Assembly (NCBI GenBank): GCA_017560825.1
Contig: JAFZED010000041.1
Coordinates: 1 to 46,106 of the forward strand
DNA from: Bacteroidales bacterium
GTDB taxonomy: Bacteria; Bacteroidota; Bacteroidia; Bacteroidales; UBA932
Length of the DNA stretch: 46,106 nucleotides
Direction: 5' to 3'
Shown: in pieces, positions 1-6,261 of the stretch
How the letters are laid out: the number at the start of each line of letters is the position of its first letter
Position numbering within the stretch: the first letter of the stretch is position 1
The notes under the pieces: model-generated
Seen by the model: only the letters and a program-made list of their open reading frames with translations
What the model was told of the DNA's origin: nothing
The model's database searches: none
Position numbers and translations under genes: made by a program

Positions 1-2370
1 AACTCCTGGAACGATAAAACCAATTGGGACATATTTTCTTTTTTCAGAAGATACTGATGGAATTAGCAAGCATGGCACACCTTCTGGCTGAGTTACCTGA
101 GCAAAAGAATGTGGAACTTTTGCATATCCAATAGTGGTCTTTGCAGAAGAGGATAATCTAAATTCGCGTACAGCATTTACGCGTTCGTACAGTATCTTAT
201 TCTGCTTTATATCCATCGGAGTAGCATCTCTAAGCCAGAGACACCAACGCAATTTGCGTTTGATAAACTCTTCTGCACCGACATATTGACGAATCCATCT
301 TGTTAAAGCTGGGTATTGAGCGATAAGCTCATTCTTCTCTTCATCTGAAAGAATAAAATGGCCTCCGTCTCGTGGTTGATTTCCAAAATTCATCTGCGGA
401 ACATCACATAATGGCGTCTTGCGGCTAATAGCAAATGTTGATTCCCCTTCAAATAGATAAGGACTGATATTGCGTACTTCATTTACATTGCCATCTGAGC
501 CAAAAAGATATTTCTTCTTTGATCCAGCAACACTGATGCCTACAATAATGCAATGTACAGCAGCATTGTCGCTTGCTTCGCTGCTCCATTTGAATGTTTG
601 ATATGCAAAATCTATTACGACATGATATTCGTTGAATAAAACATTCCACAAGATAGGAACCTGTGCTCCTTGACATATGGAGTTTGTAGAAACGAATGCG
701 ACTTTTACTGATGTGTTCTGAATCATTTCTGCTGCCTTTTTATACCAACAGCAAACATAATCCAGATCCTGAACATCTTTTATTTTTCCGAAAATGTTTT
801 CTACATCACGCTTCTGCTCCCCGCCTTGCTCCATCATTCTCGCCCCCACAAACGGTGGATTACCCATAATATAACTAAGCTCCTCCGCCGGTACAACTTC
901 ATTCCAATCCATTCTCAGAGCATTGCCCTCGACGATATTAGTGTATGACTTGAGCGGGAAGAAATCCATCTCCTGATGGATGATATTCTCCGTCTCCTTC
1001 ATCATCTGTGCCTCAGCAATCCACAGCGCAGTCGTAGCAGTGGCCACAGCAAAATCATTGATCTCGATACCATAGAACTGATGGATGCCGACTCTGATCC
1101 AAGAATTATCGTCCTCGAATCCGATGATCATATTATCTTGAGAAAGAATCCTGATAACCTCATTCTCTAATCTTCTGAGCGAAAGGAAAGTCTCAGTCAA
1201 GAAGTTTCCTGAACCGCAAGCTGGATCCAGGAACTTCAACGATGCCAGCTTCTCCTGGAACGCCTTTGCCTTACGCATCTTATCCTTTGGCTGAGCGATA
1301 GCTCTGATCTCCTGCAGTTCCTCCTTCAAACCATCAAGAAACAACGGATCGATCACCTTATGGATATTCTCGATACTGGTATAATGCATACCGCCGCTTC
1401 TTCTGGTCTGCGGATTAAGCGTACTCTCGAACACTGCACCGAAGATTGTCGGACTGATCTGACTCCAATTAAAATCATCACTCGCATGCTTGAGCAGCAA
1501 AGTTGCAATCTCATCATTCAGCCTCGGAATCTCGATTCCTCGGTCAGCAAACAGACCACCATTAACGTATGGGAAAGCCAACAACGCATCATCAAGATAC
1601 GGGTCACGCTCCGCAACTGGAGTATTCAGAATATCGAAAAGATCAATAAGTGCCCTACGCATGTCTCCAGAACCAGGCTTGAACCGCACAAGATAATCAT
1701 GAAAAGCCGAATGGCTGCTGCCACCGAACAACCCCGAATCCTCAGCATATAAACAGAATACCAAACGCACGCAAAGCACATTCAAACTCTTGAGAGTCTG
1801 AGGATCATCCGGATTACGATACTCCTTAAGCAAAGCATCATATATCTCACCGATAATCTCACCGGCCCTCAAAGATACCTCCATCTCCTTCTTTATATGC
1901 TCATTAGCCGAGTCCACCAGGAACTGCAGACGATAATACTCCTTCTCAAGATCCTGCAGCAGAATAACCTCAGGCTCCTCGAGAGGCTTGGTCATGTCGT
2001 GTATCTCGAATCTCTGGAAGTTGCAGCAGATGATCCATCGGGCTTTTTCGGCCAATGGGAGATTGTTGTCGTATCTTCGTGCCTGGTTGTATGGGGTGAG
2101 GCTGGCTCCTCCTGATTGGAGCTCCGGTTTTGATAGGTCGATATGTTTGCCTTTTTGTTCGATGAGTACTTTGGTCTCGGGGATATAGGCGTCAATGAAA
2201 CGGGTTGAGTCTTCAAGTTTGACGCGTTTCTCAAATTGAAGGTGTTTTGCCGGATATTCTACACCTAGTACTTTCTGGAACAGGTCCATCCAGAATCTTT
2301 GTGTGTCCTGTTTTTCGTCTCCTTTGCCAATCCAAGACTCCACAAAGTCTGAAATATTTATCATTGCCAT
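1..2370 (-). CDS. MmeI-like single-chain restriction/DNA adenine methyltransferase (3' end outside window)
   Basis: Open frame of 790 codons from ATG at 2370 to the window edge, so the C-terminus is missing. The N-terminus has a PD-(D/E)xK-type nuclease signature, D60 followed by E71-Q-K73 in the segment IDAYIPETKVLIEQKG. The SAM-binding motif I DPACGSGNFL begins at D382 and the catalytic motif IV NPPF at N504, as in N6-adenine methylases. Near the edge the protein reads SSEKRKYVPIGF, typical of the segment leading into the target-recognition region. This order matches the MmeI/type IIL (YeeA-like) family, which usually has about 900-1000 residues and both cuts and methylates DNA. An AAGGGA sequence lies about 7 nt before the start. 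It is the leftmost gene of a defence-type region. Family assignment is firm; active cutting is inferred from the intact nuclease residues. Confidence 0.88.
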   Translation of the reverse strand, partial: MAMINISDFVESWIGKGDEKQDTQRFWMDLFQKVLGVEYPAKHLQFEKRVKLEDSTRFIDAYIPETKVLIEQKGKHIDLSKPELQSGGASLTPYNQARRYDNNLPLAEKARWIICCNFQRFEIHDMTKPLEEPEVILLQDLEKEYYRLQFLVDSANEHIKKEMEVSLRAGEIIGEIYDALLKEYRNPDDPQTLKSLNVLCVRLVFCLYAEDSGLFGGSSHSAFHDYLVRFKPGSGDMRRALIDLFDILNTPVAERDPYLDDALLAFPYVNGGLFADRGIEIPRLNDEIATLLLKHASDDFNWSQISPTIFGAVFESTLNPQTRRSGGMHYTSIENIHKVIDPLFLDGLKEELQEIRAIAQPKDKMRKAKAFQEKLASLKFLDPACGSGNFLTETFLSLRRLENEVIRILSQDNMIIGFEDDNSWIRVGIHQFYGIEINDFAVATATTALWIAEAQMMKETENIIHQEMDFFPLKSYTNIVEGNALRMDWNEVVPAEELSYIMGNPPFVGARMMEQGGEQKRDVENIFGKIKDVQDLDYVCCWYKKAAEMIQNTSVKVAFVSTNSICQGAQVPILWNVLFNEYHVVIDFAYQTFKWSSEASDNAAVHCIIVGISVAGSKKKYLFGSDGNVNEVRNISPYLFEGESTFAISRKTPLCDVPQMNFGNQPRDGGHFILSDEEKNELIAQYPALTRWIRQYVGAEEFIKRKLRWCLWLRDATPMDIKQNKILYERVNAVREFRLSSSAKTTIGYAKVPHSFAQVTQPEGVPCLLIPSVSSEKRKYVPIGFIVPGV

Positions 2371-2383
2371 AGCGATTCCCTTT

Positions 2384-2399
2384 TAACTTTGCGAAGTTA
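2384..2399. repeat. Inverted repeat upstream of the methyltransferase gene
   Basis: TAACTT-TGCG-AAGTTA, a perfect 6-bp inverted repeat with a 4-nt spacer, 14 nt before the start codon of the restriction-methylation gene. It could be an operator or part of a promoter: one strand reads TAACTTTG, which matches the phylum's -7 consensus but points away from the gene. Function is unproven. Confidence 0.4.
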
Positions 2400-2408
2400 G
2401 CGAAATTT

Positions 2409-2741
2409 TCAATGAGAACATAGGGTTTGCTTTTTTGACCATTGGGTGATTCCTTCGACGTGGGTGTTGATGATGGCTTGTTTGCCTGTGTGGCTCTGGA
2501 GGTAGGTGAGGTCAGTCTGATTGTCCATGAAGAAGTCTTCTGTGAGGACGGCGGGGCAGCGGGTGCCGTCGCCGGCGGCGTTGACGTGGATGGAGATGAG
2601 GAGGACGTTGGTTTTGCCGTGGGTGGTGCAGTGGGCGTTGGTGCGGCGGACGCGTTCTTGCAGGGGGATGTTGTCTTCAGGAAACAGGAGCTCGGAGTCG
2701 TAGCCTTTGTTTTTCAGCTCAGTGACTACCTGCCTTGCGAT
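2409..2741 (-). pseudogene. N-acetylmuramoyl-L-alanine amidase (Amidase_3) remnant
   Basis: On the minus strand, an open frame ending in TGA at 2411-2409 reads IARQVVTELKNKGYDSELL, then LQERVRRTNAHC, then NVLLISIHVNAAG, and jumps directly to CPAVLTEDFFMDNQ and GKQAIINTHVEGI. These are central and C-terminal blocks of the Amidase_3 enzymes carried by Bacteroidales prophages and conjugative elements. The N-terminal block with the first zinc ligands (usually DNGHG) is absent. The stretch normally lying between the NAAG and CPAVLTE blocks, some 60 residues, is also missing. No start codon with a plausible context is present. I read this as a decayed gene with two deletions, and as a scar of a mobile element beside the defence genes. 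The plus-strand ORF over the same bases is a shadow. Confidence 0.72.
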
Positions 2742-2776
2742 AAATAAAAAAAGTCGCCGAGATTACTCTCGACGAC
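2742..2776 (-). terminator. Intrinsic terminator of the AbiF-associated small RNA
   Basis: On the minus strand the arms GTCGTCGAGA (2776-2767) and TCTCGGCGAC (2762-2753) form a 10-bp stem with one G-U pair and loop GTAA. Seven T follow immediately, then ATTT. This is a textbook rho-independent terminator that ends transcription from abiF and from the small RNA inside it. Confidence 0.85.
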
Positions 2777-2834
2777 CAAATTCTCCTTTTTATAGTGCAG
2801 CGTGAAGCGATAGTAGACATCACGGGCACTTTGC
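2742..2834 (-). ncRNA. Candidate small RNA partner of AbiF
   Basis: This unannotated unit of about 90 nt has its own -7 box (2847-2840) directly after the abiF stop codon and ends at the terminator above. Near the expected 5' end, AGTGC (2830-2826) pairs with GCACT (2798-2794), and CGTGA (2824-2820) pairs with TCACG (2805-2801). This gives a two-helix hairpin with a small asymmetric internal loop and a 14-nt apical loop (2819-2806). An A/G-rich linker (2793-2777, containing AAAAAGGAGAA) leads to the terminator helix. No convincing reading frame is present. From memory, a structured RNA motif has been described next to genes of the Abi_2/AbiF family, and AbiF-RNA pairs have been proposed as RNA toxin-antitoxin systems related to the ancestry of Cas13. 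The layout here fits that idea; identity with that motif is not shown. Confidence 0.65.
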
Positions 2835-2839
2835 GAGTG

Positions 2840-2847
2840 CAAAGGTA
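2840..2847 (-). promoter_or_regulatory. -7 element for the AbiF-linked small RNA
   Basis: TACCTTTG on the minus strand matches the Bacteroidota consensus TAnnTTTG. A TTG lies 23 nt upstream, slightly farther than the usual 19-21. Transcription would start near 2835-2832, just before the first helix of the small RNA. Confidence 0.6.
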
Positions 2848-2881
2848 GAAATTATTTTCCAATAATTATACAATAATCATG

Positions 2882-3778
2882 TTAAAATGTTTCAAATCCA
2901 GAAACTTTTTCCAAGATTTCTCTAACTTTTTCGTTCTCCACTTTCTTGAGAAGATCTTTGAGTTCATCGCACATCTCCTGATATCTGTGTACGGATATCT
3001 GCTTGATGAAGTACTGGATTACTACGATGATACCTATGATGTTAGAGTTATTCGGTTGCGCCAGATTGCCGGCTGGTCCATGTGGTAATCTCTGAGGCAG
3101 TTTTGTATCGAATAGCACATTGCCATGAGCGCACATGTTTCTTGCTTTACGGATGGTTTCAAAATAACTTTGGAAGATACCGATTTTAGCAACGCCGTAA
3201 TGAAGGGCTATGTCTGCTTGTACATCTGGCTTCTTGAGGTTGTTGTAAAGCGCCTGAATGTTTCCGATTGTCATCAGCTCAACGGTTTTCCATGCTGGAG
3301 CATATCTGTCCATTGGATATTTCTTGTGATGCTCTATGATAGTCGGATTGTCTTGAAATGCTTTAGTTCCGTACACAGTTGTATAGAAACTATTTACATA
3401 ACTTGGTTTCATTACAGAGTGAGTGATGAACCAGCATGGCTTTGTCTTGTATAGGTTTGACACATGATATGTGATATATGTCCTGATGTTTACCTCTATG
3501 CGGGTGAGGTATTTCATCAGCAGCCTTCTGAGGTCACAGTCGAAATAGTATAAATCCAGCGCGTCAAGGAAGTTTGTGCCATCCTTGTAAATATGATCTC
3601 TGTTCTTTTTGCTCGGATATTTCTTTTCATATGGGAACAGATATGCTCCAAATCGATAATATCCTATGTCAAGAAGCACTTCTTTAGCCTTCTCCTCATC
3701 ATTGATGACCAGTCCTCTGTTCTTCAATTTCTCAACCTGCTCATCTAAAGTCGTTGCATATTTCATAGATGTCGTCAT
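2882..3778 (-). CDS. abiF: Abi_2/AbiF-family HEPN protein (abortive infection)
   Basis: A 298-residue protein of the AbiD/AbiF (Abi_2) family. The N-terminal block LLDIGYYRFGAYLFPY (about 35-50), the central helices DLRRLLMKYLTRIEVNIR (82-99) and the C-terminal RNMCAH signature (R213 to H218, an RxxxxH HEPN ribonuclease motif) followed by GNVLFD are all characteristic. Family members act as RNA-cleaving toxins or phage-exclusion proteins. Length is normal and the frame is intact. A TATATTTG box ends only 10 nt before the ATG, so either the leader is very short or Met5 (3766) is the true start; there is no clear Shine-Dalgarno to decide. A structured small RNA follows 35-50 nt downstream on the same strand. 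Neighbours are a restriction-methylation gene and decayed mobile-element genes, consistent with a defence island. Confidence 0.9.
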   Translation of the reverse strand: MTTSMKYATTLDEQVEKLKNRGLVINDEEKAKEVLLDIGYYRFGAYLFPYEKKYPSKKNRDHIYKDGTNFLDALDLYYFDCDLRRLLMKYLTRIEVNIRTYITYHVSNLYKTKPCWFITHSVMKPSYVNSFYTTVYGTKAFQDNPTIIEHHKKYPMDRYAPAWKTVELMTIGNIQALYNNLKKPDVQADIALHYGVAKIGIFQSYFETIRKARNMCAHGNVLFDTKLPQRLPHGPAGNLAQPNNSNIIGIIVVIQYFIKQISVHRYQEMCDELKDLLKKVENEKVREILEKVSGFETF

Positions 3779-3788
3779 CTTGTTTGAG

Positions 3789-3796
3789 CAAATATA
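3789..3796 (-). promoter_or_regulatory. -7 element of abiF
   Basis: TATATTTG on the minus strand, matching TAnnTTTG, 10 nt before the first ATG of abiF. No good TTG lies at the expected -33 distance. Confidence 0.5.
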
Positions 3797-3812
3797 GTGG
3801 TTTTGTGGTAAT

Positions 3813-3905
3813 TCAGTTGTTATTATCTTTCAAAAATTCTATGAGCCAATCGGCAAGGTCGATGTGGGCTGCTTTTTCTTCTGGGGTGGTGTTGTCTTCG
3901 AGGAG
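3813..3905 (-). pseudogene. C-terminal tail of an unidentified lost gene
   Basis: The minus-strand frame ending in TGA at 3815-3813 reads ISRLLEDNTTPEEKAAHIDL and then ADWLIEFLKDNNN. This has the composition of a real acidic, helical protein C-terminus. Upstream the frame passes into repetitive non-coding sequence with no start codon. I do not recognise the parent family. It looks like the 3' stub of a gene whose body was replaced by the repeat block. Confidence 0.4.
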
Positions 3906-4235
3906 GCGGGAGATGCCAGATCGGGGCGGGCATGACGATATCGATTTCTTTCGCTGGAGCTCAAGCGACTTCGTCGATGACTCGACTCGTTGCGCTTGCT
4001 CGAAATGACAGATAGGCGCTCAGGGTGACAGTGGAAGCTGTCAGGATGGCGGCGGTTTCGTTCTGGATGATCGTGGAAGTATTGGCGTGGGGTACGGTGG
4101 TAGCCGCAGGAGGATTCGTGGTCGCAACTGACCTTGGGCCACACGAATGTGCCATATAAGCTCTGTGAGCACGATTGGCGTGGCTTAAGGTTTGGCTATA
4201 GGTATGAGATCCCCGGTCAAGCCGGGGATGATGGT
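3900..4235. repeat. Block of degenerate intergenic repeats with a REP-like palindrome
   Basis: This stretch of about 340 bases has no supportable gene. It is a patchwork of short units recurring in slightly altered form: TCGAAATGACAG, CAGGGTGACAG, TGTCAGGATGG, TCTGGATGATCG and GGGGATGATGG. Translated on the minus strand they give the familiar spurious CHPERLSVISSKRNESS type of peptide. At 4209-4229 ATCCCCGG-TCAAG-CCGGGGAT forms a perfect 8-bp hairpin. Units like this are dispersed between genes in many environmental and gut genomes. They explain the short antisense ORFs here. Confidence 0.6.
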
Positions 4236-4252
4236 AGTCCCGATTTATCTGC

Positions 4253-5545
4253 TTAGATCAAGATGTATTTCAAGATAAACAGAACTGCGAGTATGTATAT
4301 TGCTGGGGATAATTTCTTGAATTTTCCGCAGATCATATTCATAAGCACGTATGTGATCATTCCTATGAGGATTCCGTTGGAGATAGAGTAGGTCAACGGC
4401 ATCATAATCATACATACGAAGGCAGGTATTGATTCGGAGAAGTCATCGTAAGGGATGTTCTTTGCCTGTTCCATCATAAGCAATCCTACGATAATCAGGG
4501 CAGGAGCAGTCGCTGCTGATGGAATGGAAAGGAACAGCGGAGAAAAGAACAATGCCACAACAAAGCAGCCTCCTACGATCAGAGCTGTCAATCCGGAACG
4601 TCCTCCCTGAGCTACTCCTGCTGCACTTTCTACATAGGTAGTAGTTGTGGAGGTGCCGAGTATGGCTCCTACTGTCGTAGCTATGGAATCTGCCATAAAG
4701 GCCTGCTTTACTCTGTGGATGTTTCCCTTTTCATCAAGCATTTTTGCTTTTGTACACACTCCCACAAGGGTTCCCACAGTGTCGAACATATCGATAAAGA
4801 AGAATGTGAACACTACCACCAGCATATCCACAGAGAATATCTTGTCGAACTCAAACTGACAGAAGATAGGTCCTATGGACTCCGGTACAGACACGACACC
4901 TTTGAATTCGGTAACACCTAACGGAATGCCGATAAGCATTGTGATGATGATTCCAAGAAGAATCGCTCCCGGTACATTGCGGGCATATAGGAAACCTGTA
5001 ATGATGAGTCCAATGAAGGCGAGGAGGGCAGATCCGGATGTGATGTCACCAAGGGCTACAAGGGTTGCACCATCTGCCACTACCACTCCGGCACTTTTCA
5101 AACCTATAAATGCAATGAAAAGTCCGATACCGGCACCGATGGCATTTCTCAGGCTCATAGGAATAGCATCTACAATAGCCTCTCTCACATTAGTGAGAGT
5201 CAGAACTATGAATATGAGACCTTCAATAAGTACTGCAGTAAGGGCAAACTGCCAGGAGTAGCCCATTCCCATACATACACTATAAACGAAGAATGCATTC
5301 AAGCCCATTCCTGGAGCAAGGCCAAACGGAAGTTTGCCTATAAAGGCCATCGCAAGACATCCTACTATTGCAGCCAGTGCGGTAGATGTAAACACAGAAC
5401 CTATAGGCATACCGTCGAGCTCGCCGAACATAGTAGGGTTGACGGCCAGGATGTACGACATAGTCAGGAACGTAGTGATACCTGCAACGATTTCCGTGCG
5501 GACCGTTGTCTTTGCTGGATCAAATCCGAATAGTTTCTTTAGCAT
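4253..5545 (-). CDS. NCS2/AzgA-type purine (adenine/guanine/hypoxanthine) permease
   Basis: A 430-residue polytopic inner-membrane protein. The N-terminus LFGFDPAKTTVRTEIVAGIT followed by FLTMSYILAVNP is the hallmark of the AzgA/PbuG branch of NCS2 transporters. Further family blocks are GLAPGMGLNAFF (about 76-87), MSLRNAIGAGIGLFIAFIGL and GTSTTTTYVESAAGVAQGGRSGLT. It should import purine bases by proton symport. It lies 11 nt after a Tsx-like outer-membrane channel gene on the same strand, so the two probably form an operon for purine or nucleoside uptake across both membranes. Length is normal for the family and nothing is missing. The exact base preferred cannot be read from sequence. Confidence 0.92.
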   Translation of the reverse strand: MLKKLFGFDPAKTTVRTEIVAGITTFLTMSYILAVNPTMFGELDGMPIGSVFTSTALAAIVGCLAMAFIGKLPFGLAPGMGLNAFFVYSVCMGMGYSWQFALTAVLIEGLIFIVLTLTNVREAIVDAIPMSLRNAIGAGIGLFIAFIGLKSAGVVVADGATLVALGDITSGSALLAFIGLIITGFLYARNVPGAILLGIIITMLIGIPLGVTEFKGVVSVPESIGPIFCQFEFDKIFSVDMLVVVFTFFFIDMFDTVGTLVGVCTKAKMLDEKGNIHRVKQAFMADSIATTVGAILGTSTTTTYVESAAGVAQGGRSGLTALIVGGCFVVALFFSPLFLSIPSAATAPALIIVGLLMMEQAKNIPYDDFSESIPAFVCMIMMPLTYSISNGILIGMITYVLMNMICGKFKKLSPAIYILAVLFILKYILI

Positions 5546-5556
5546 ATCGTTTCAAT

Positions 5557-6261
5557 TTAGAATGTCCATTTTGCACCGAAAGCAGGCATTGCGTCGAATC
5601 CTTTCGCAACAAAGTTTGCTGAAAGCTCAAGCTCTCCGCCTACACTTAGATTTACGTCTTCCCAGCCTTTGACCTTGTTGAGGTTAACCCAGAACTGAGG
5701 CTCTGTCATAAATATGAATTCTGTTCCTTGCCAAGGTCGCAGTTCTCTCCAGAAATCAGCAAAGCCGCTGAATGTGCACCAGCCACCTGCAAACTCGATT
5801 CCCCATACGCCGGTGATCTGGAAATTGTGCATCTGACATCTTCCCAGTGCGTCCAATGTGCCGGGAATCGCCTTGTACATAGCGGAGATTGACCACGTCT
5901 TTGTGAAATCGTCTGAGTGTCCGGAATATGTCAGACCGCCGAGGAAAGAATTGTTGAATGAGGTTCCGACGCTTAGTCCGCCGTTGTATTCCAGGTGGAC
6001 TGACAGCCAGTTCACATCTGAATCCTGCCAGAAATTCAGTTCGCGGGAGATTTCCCAATATGCTCCGCTGGCTTTCGGCGAATAGTCAAAGTCGATGAAG
6101 AAGAATGTGTTTCCTCCTGCATCAGGACGGAACATTTCCACTGTTGATGTGGTACATCCTCGGCCGGCATCATAGAATAACTGCAGGTTCTGGGCCTGTG
6201 CTTCATTGATTCCCAAGCAGGAAGCACAGAAGAGTACTAAGGCTGTAATGAATCGTCTCAT
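5557..6261 (-). CDS. Tsx-like outer-membrane nucleoside channel (DUF5020 family)
   Basis: A 234-residue protein with a signal peptide (MRRFITALVLFCASCLGINEAQAQ, cleavage near residue 23). The mature part is rich in alternating aromatic/polar strands and ends in a terminal Phe (AFGAKWTF), as expected for a barrel recognised by the BAM machinery. Segments such as NTFFFIDFDYSP, YWEISRELNFW, VHLEYNGG and the tail resemble the DUF5020/Tsx-like group. These form 12-strand channels for nucleosides in the outer membrane. The purine permease follows 11 nt downstream, which supports a role in nucleoside or nucleobase uptake. Family assignment is from pattern recognition. Confidence 0.8.
   Translation of the reverse strand: MRRFITALVLFCASCLGINEAQAQNLQLFYDAGRGCTTSTVEMFRPDAGGNTFFFIDFDYSPKASGAYWEISRELNFWQDSDVNWLSVHLEYNGGLSVGTSFNNSFLGGLTYSGHSDDFTKTWSISAMYKAIPGTLDALGRCQMHNFQITGVWGIEFAGGWCTFSGFADFWRELRPWQGTEFIFMTEPQFWVNLNKVKGWEDVNLSVGGELELSANFVAKGFDAMPAFGAKWTF

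Follow-up and report, generated by a model that had tools for sequence, protein, structure and literature searches.

AbiF proteins are proposed ancestors of Cas13, and one of them, PbAbiF, was reportedly described together with a noncoding RNA by Zilberzwige-Tal et al. in Cell in 2025 (PDB 8vz6). In the Clostridioides difficile system, the HEPN toxin AbiFCd (motif RNQCAH) is paired with a hairpin RNA antitoxin, RCd22, which binds and neutralises it; RCd22 lies upstream, in the abiF leader, where it attenuates transcription of abiF, and it contains the RF03085 motif twice (PMC12373285). PbAbiF binds one RNA per monomer (PMC12737573). RF03085, the abiF RNA motif of Rfam, is a 37-position model of a hairpin adjoining abiF, upstream wherever it was seen beside that gene, and in the papers cited here the AbiF RNA is RF03085 wherever the available text states a class. 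Here we analysed a stretch of 46,106 nucleotides from a gut Bacteroidales bacterium (UBA932; assembly GCA_017560825.1, contig JAFZED010000041.1), called the window from here on, in which an abiF gene is followed directly past its stop codon, on the same strand, by a putative small RNA gene. Like AbiFCd and RCd22, the locus joins a HEPN protein to a hairpin RNA. Unlike RCd22, the window RNA has one motif, lies downstream, has its own promoter box and gives no RF03085 match.

We consider it probable (about 0.8) that the locus is a two-gene cassette for RNA toxin-antitoxin activity and phage defence, in which the RNA would be an antitoxin that binds and blocks AbiF. The first-pass annotation of this DNA had proposed that the AbiF HEPN protein and a structured RNA form a toxin-antitoxin or defence module, and the comparative data (profile, covariation, recurrence, subtype grouping and fold) support the proposal. 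Conservation, structure, promoter box, terminator, AbiF fold, catalytic motif and the matched grouping of RNA and protein are properties of the sequences. The RNA gene and its parts are as follows.

2745 to 2836, minus strand: RNA gene of about 90 nt, predicted from the R1 match and the fold, with a 5′ end inferred at about 2836-2833
2840 to 2847, minus strand: TACCTTTG, predicted −7 box of a promoter belonging to the RNA gene, 9 nt ahead of the hairpin, an instance of the clade-wide box
2826 to 2830, minus strand: 5′ side of the outer helix, AGUGC, nearly invariant
between 2826 and 2824, minus strand: single C between the 5′ sides of the outer and inner helices
2820 to 2824, minus strand: 5′ side of the inner helix, CGUGA, covarying
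2806 to 2819, minus strand: 14-nt loop, of which the last 13 nt are GUCUACUAUCGCU (type I core alignment)
2801 to 2805, minus strand: 3′ side of the inner helix, UCACG, covarying
between 2801 and 2798, minus strand: CU between the 3′ sides of the inner and outer helices
2794 to 2798, minus strand: 3′ side of the outer helix, GCACU, nearly invariant
2778 to 2793, minus strand: AUAAAAAGGAGAAUUU, NUAAAA tail and purine-rich linker joining the hairpin to the terminator (alignment)
2752 to 2777, minus strand: predicted intrinsic terminator, 11 pairs and then a U-run (scan; recurrence in the clade)

The sequence and the terminator scan place hairpin, loop, linker and terminator on the minus strand where the first reading had put them. 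The 94-nt RNA folded at −32.4 kcal/mol (z −3.9) and none of 200 shuffles did as well; the 37-nt core folded at −12.4 kcal/mol (z −3.5), matched by one shuffle in 200. The covariance model R1 matched positions 2775-2833 with 60.4 bits, a score obtained on a member of the model's own set. On its own, the terminator scan was within chance (1 found, 0.8 expected), and the call is supported because the terminator recurs in relatives.

Two further features belong to the protein-coding half of the locus.

2882 to 3778, minus strand: abiF, encoding a 298-aa Abi_2/AbiF HEPN protein with an RNxCAH motif (R213, N214, H218); the start may be Met5 (3766)
3789 to 3796, minus strand: TATATTTG, candidate −7 box of an abiF promoter, from the window sequence and the consensus TAnnTTTG

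The Abi_2 profile (PF07751) scored 145.5 bits on the window AbiF against a cut-off of 25.6, and NCBIfam gave no match to it. Residues 1-298 align with 8vz6, and the window protein shares the fold of the solved AbiF. R213, N214 and H218 showed no variation across 35 aligned sequences, in agreement with the intact RxxxxH (R213/H218) reported for this protein at first reading. By analogy, the product is probably a HEPN ribonuclease and probably dimeric. Homology to L003, whose AbiF is 93% identical, stops at 3767, and for this reason the true start may be Met5. TAnnTTTG is the promoter consensus of Bacteroidetes. Since TATATTTG (3796-3789) lies ahead of abiF, the gene may have its own promoter.

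AbiF relatives were gathered by a contig scan (4 loci) and from 200 relatives (29 genomes matching), 300 genus genomes (45 at E ≤1e-20) and 295 order genomes (7 at 1e-35). They formed two groups, the clade of the window protein, with about 38-100% identity to it, and a sister group with mostly 24-35%. The clade set comprised 31 full-length loci, several of them near-copies: 24 from the genus scan plus L002, L004, L011 and L119-L122. Kept outside the tree were L031 (a fragment), L032 (24% identity), L036 (the L023 gene), L046 (on the L003 contig, counted once) and fragments at L093 and L106, though the RNA is present at both. All 31 clade AbiF genes had the RNA beside them, downstream in 30, as in the window and unlike the upstream RF03085, and upstream in one (L121). 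The TAnnTTTG promoter that had been read ahead of the window hairpin recurred as TAnnTT[TC]G, 6-12 nt ahead of the hairpin, at 31 of 31 clade loci, compared with a background of 3% of 32-nt stretches in the same loci, and a terminator was detected at 30 of the 31. R1 gave no match for the clade RNAs of L052 (E ≤1) and L121 (G471, E ≤0.01), which were located by pattern and eye instead. Matches to R1 were found in 43 of 300 genus genomes (E ≤0.1) and 6 of 295 order genomes, the window's own included (E 0.01); among 247 genomes of the phylum only the window's own matched (E ≤0.01), these runs using stricter filters that lose weak matches. The pairing of AbiF and RNA exceeds chance, because of the recurrence at every clade locus and this phylum-wide specificity.

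The proteins and their RNAs were also grouped alike. A branch supported at 100/99 separated the 31 clade members from the other proteins of a 53-member AbiF tree. Labelling this tree by RNA core, with types I-V and L121 on its own, took five label changes, the minimum possible, compared with 17.8 for shuffled labels; support was modest for types II and III. The match between RNA subtype and AbiF tree fits cognate partners.

The outer pairs AGUG/CACU were constant throughout an 18-row alignment, outside which L048 has one outer pair broken. Pair statistics were run per subtype. In types I and II (10 distinct cores) the 12 proposed pairs were kept in 92.5% of the cells, a figure that leans toward the structures in being taken from the cores off which they were read. 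Both sides changed in 10 cells, whereas shuffles averaged 3.4 and none of 500 reached that number, and pairing fell to ≤57% when the partner was shifted along. The compensatory changes proposed as a check on abiF homologues are found in the inner helix. In type I, GUCUACUAUCGCU is constant save for one substitution in L047, and the helix around the loop occurs in several versions that differ in sequence but remain paired. Conserved in sequence are the NUAAAA tail and the outer helix; the inner helix is conserved in pairing, and the greater part of the loop is conserved inside subtype I. RNAalifold retained the outer helix only. A pooled count over all subtypes was weaker, with 61.5% of inner-helix cells paired, probably through misalignment by MAFFT, and was replaced by the count per subtype.

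The suggested check against the registered abiF motif came out negative: RF03085 at its gathering threshold (37 bits) matched neither the window nor 13 clade loci, and in the window's genome it gave nothing at E ≤10. The best weak Rfam match over the RNA, an alphaproteobacterial small RNA (sRNA) model with 22.7 bits against a cut-off of 50, was taken as chance. In the sister group, RF03085 or a look-alike hairpin was found just upstream of 19 of 22 AbiF genes (12 by pattern, 7 by eye; L026, L028 and L030 had none), look-alike meaning position and skeleton, as some of these hairpins fell short of E 10 with RF03085 (≤150 candidates scored per genome). The model scored above its cut-off upstream of AbiF genes of about 30% identity in 4 genomes. 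PbAbiF, about 26% identical to the window AbiF, belongs with this sister group, because 8vz6 matched L035, which carries RF03085 upstream, at 3.2e-78 and the window at 3.6e-24. Since the window RNA has no RF03085 match, whereas the sister group has RF03085 or its look-alikes upstream, the window RNA looks like a second, unregistered class of AbiF RNA with its own AbiF clade. L057 and L058, which encode the same protein of the sister group, have an RF03085-like hairpin upstream and the new RNA downstream. RF03085 also occurs apart from AbiF: 10 of 13 genus hits (L180-L189) had no AbiF in flanks of ≤1.5 kb, one of them (L184) lying too close to a contig end to tell. The available text of the literature searched describes no downstream, non-RF03085 AbiF RNA, and the 2025 Cell study may cover some of these loci. 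An AbiF clade with a different, downstream and apparently independently transcribed RNA makes a comparison set for the RNA features that AbiF needs and for how the RNA partnership changed, and cognate and non-cognate pairs can be compared in a straightforward way by means of the subtypes and the covarying inner helix.

We infer transcription, binding, inhibition and activation by phage as steps of one mechanism. A separate RNA of about 90 nt would be made from the gene downstream of abiF, and its 37-nt hairpin would bind AbiF and block the HEPN active site, as suggested by the analogies with RCd22 (PMC12373285) and PbAbiF (PMC12737573). With an apparent promoter for each gene, the RNA would act in trans and be present in excess. 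As the RNA appears to have a gene to itself, leader attenuation of the RCd22 type would be absent, and control would lie in the balance of the two promoters and in RNA turnover. A phage that halts host transcription or destroys the small RNA would leave AbiF to outlive its RNA, cut RNA and arrest the cell. The toxin of ToxIN has a fold unrelated to AbiF. ToxIN and other type III toxin-antitoxin systems share the presumed logic of an RNA antitoxin and a ribonuclease toxin (PMC12373285); the window RNA differs from theirs in lying downstream and having no tandem repeats, with 1 R1 match at E ≤0.1 in the genome.

The RNA is not confined to abiF loci. R1 marked 54 places in the genus scan, 43 of them with E <1e-3; of these, 23 were beside clade AbiF genes (1 a contig-end fragment), 2 beside sister AbiF genes with a 5′ hairpin (L057, L058), 5 no more than about 255 nt from the end of a contig, and the remaining 13 elsewhere, the flanks having been searched over about 4 kb or as far as the contig ran. 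A profile search near the copies gave only an AbiF fragment on the L093 contig, about 1.5 kb off and with its own RNA, the L106 fragment (counted among the 23) and a distant Abi_2 protein in L105. The promoter box was kept in 8 of the 13 copies away from abiF and the terminator in 12 (weak in L093). Ten neighbour proteins compared with Pfam included GmrSD/HNH, NYN, nucleotidyltransferase, PD-(D/E)XK, KilA-N, RhuM and distant Abi_2 matches, as well as two metabolic enzymes and one protein with no Pfam match. In the order, G506 holds one further copy, AbiF being absent from its 1.5-kb flanks. The distant Abi_2 protein (L105:3182-4045, RNRIAHH) is followed by another hairpin, seen by eye, and then by the new RNA with no close promoter box. 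Long-stemmed, bulge-free hairpins of the form AGTGC...GCACTATAAAAA occur at L111:4042-4104, L137 and L141, the latter two with promoter box and terminator; they are perhaps a related RNA.

Apparent copies were also seen on viral contigs. L129, a 101.8-kb viral contig with genes for a helicase, a DNA polymerase and a terminase small subunit, carries just after a gene an RNA core in which all 35 nt are identical to the RNA beside the G471 AbiF (L121), and a long hairpin follows. L178, a 183-kb viral contig with matches to tail sheath and neck proteins (2e-6 and 6e-6), has a type IV RNA with terminator 4 nt past a tRNA-Asp gene (R1, 39.9 bits). R1 scored 31.5 bits on L131, 31.7 on the family of L126, L130 and L133, and 17 on L137 and L141; L128, L136 and L142 were weak. 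Neither the number of hits nor their position carries the claim of phage copies: the pattern scan found 19 contigs compared with 22 for a stem-swapped control, and test and control hits both lay inside stop-to-stop frames (72 codons in L129, 86 in L131, 65 in L178 and 115 in the L133 family; 61 or more for control hits). Folding did separate them, with ≤−11 kcal/mol in 7 of 13 distinct test cores, including L127 inside a 584-codon frame, and in none of the 8 distinct control cores, the best of which reached −9.6. The claim is based on this folding, on the complete motif of L178 and on the identity in L129. Chance places were all that two further type patterns gave on viral contigs; the type IV pattern gave 12 viral places, with the full motif only in L178, a fourth viral pattern gave L129 again and nothing else, and the type V pattern found no place there. 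With blastn, the RNA matched 1 record among named phages and 3 among plasmids, only over short stretches and with E 0.9 or worse. AbiF peptide patterns were not found in the viral contigs, and AbiF relatives in named phages (64 records) and plasmids (350) were all <60% identical. L126, L130 and L133 have in common a hairpin with a UUCG loop and a UUAAAAAAGA tail.

The position of hairpin and terminator would suit a mere 3′ untranslated region (UTR) of the abiF mRNA, serving stability and termination with no separate RNA, and 5 of the 13 copies away from abiF have no close promoter box. We consider this improbable: the box precedes the hairpin at every clade locus and persists in most of the distant copies, L121 has the whole unit upstream of abiF, and a UTR does not need the near-invariant AGUGC/GCACU. 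An antisense regulator pairing with abiF mRNA, in the manner of type I systems, would be in keeping with the single-stranded loop and with the small antisense RNAs that control some toxin genes. It appears slightly less probable still, as in 23 loci the RNA was predicted to pair with the start region of its own abiF at −21.0 on average, compared with −20.5 for others (sd 4.8), the own target ranked 10.3 on average on a 0-22 scale (chance 11), and the best-conserved part is a helix and not an accessible complement. The least probable of these readings is that the RNA guides AbiF to a target RNA as a forerunner of Cas13. Linker and loop are alike within subtypes, and no part of the RNA is conspicuously variable; the single R1 match in the window's genome (77% complete) means that no array, and no repeat-spacer arrangement of the CRISPR-Cas13 kind, was found; and in place of the two HEPN domains of Cas13 the 298-aa protein has a single RNxxxH. 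The first-pass annotation had described AbiF RNAs as antitoxin and guide; the antitoxin part agrees with how they are described elsewhere (PMC12373285, PMC12737573), whereas the guide part finds no such backing, the available text of PMC12165695 raising RNA guidance before Cas13 only as a possibility. Several points weigh against the antitoxin reading. Linked inheritance alone could also make RNA subtype track protein clade, and the frequency of the RNA apart from AbiF (13 of 43 strong genus places) makes another partner or role possible. Most clade proteins have CAHG and most sister-group proteins CAHH. The RNA outside the outer helix differs strongly among subtypes, further pair types in types I and II (7) were not above shuffles (6.5), and covariation was weaker, with less power, in type III (5 cores) and type IV (13 cores), where both-side changes went in the same direction and were matched by 11 and 9 of 500 shuffles, respectively.

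For the copies away from abiF, we tentatively propose, at somewhat less than even odds, that the new antitoxin RNA class with its own AbiF clade is a shared currency of phage-host conflict. Solitary bacterial copies would sit in defence or mobile regions, and promoterless or tRNA-linked copies in large phages would serve as decoys keeping AbiF off during infection. Phage-encoded antitoxins or mimics have been proposed as a simple answer to toxin-antitoxin defence, and the lytic cyanophage S-CREM1 likewise carries an AbiF-type RNA, the abiF sRNA, which unlike the present copies is of the RF03085 class and for which the available text mentions neither an AbiF protein gene nor a decoy role (PMC9964418). 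Phage copies would, if they neutralise AbiF, amount to RNA-only anti-defence elements, invisible to protein searches. That chromosomal and phage copies are instead remnants of lost abiF loci, or passengers, has a marginally better chance, still just under one half. The copies lacking a promoter box, the one lacking a terminator, the weak terminator of L093 and the mobile-element or defence-type genes adjoining some copies agree with decay or passage. The promoter boxes and terminators that most copies keep argue against this reading, as does the result of the profile search, which gave no abiF remnant other than the distant Abi_2 protein and the separate fragment with its own RNA; the 11 viral records with R1 matches, which may be fragments, had no Abi_2 match at E ≤1.

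The window region 1401-5600 was compared with L002 and L003 to delimit the cassette.

2739 to 3884, no strand assigned: extent of the abiF-RNA cassette, from homology to L002 over 2747-3884 and to L003 over 2739-3767, with differing flanks

The cassette seems to move. G144 and G587, of two families, encode almost identical AbiF proteins (L011, L122); downstream of each gene, a type IV and a type III RNA stand in tandem. Positions 1-2370 of the window (minus strand) hold an MmeI-like restriction-modification gene, cut off by the left end, with MmeI_N, helicase spacer, methyltransferase and target recognition domains, and the abiF cassette is therefore near another defence gene. Directly past the RNA terminator, an open frame at 2409-2762 (minus strand) matches Amidase_3 (N-acetylmuramoyl-L-alanine amidase) over its final 40 positions only and looks like a gene fragment.
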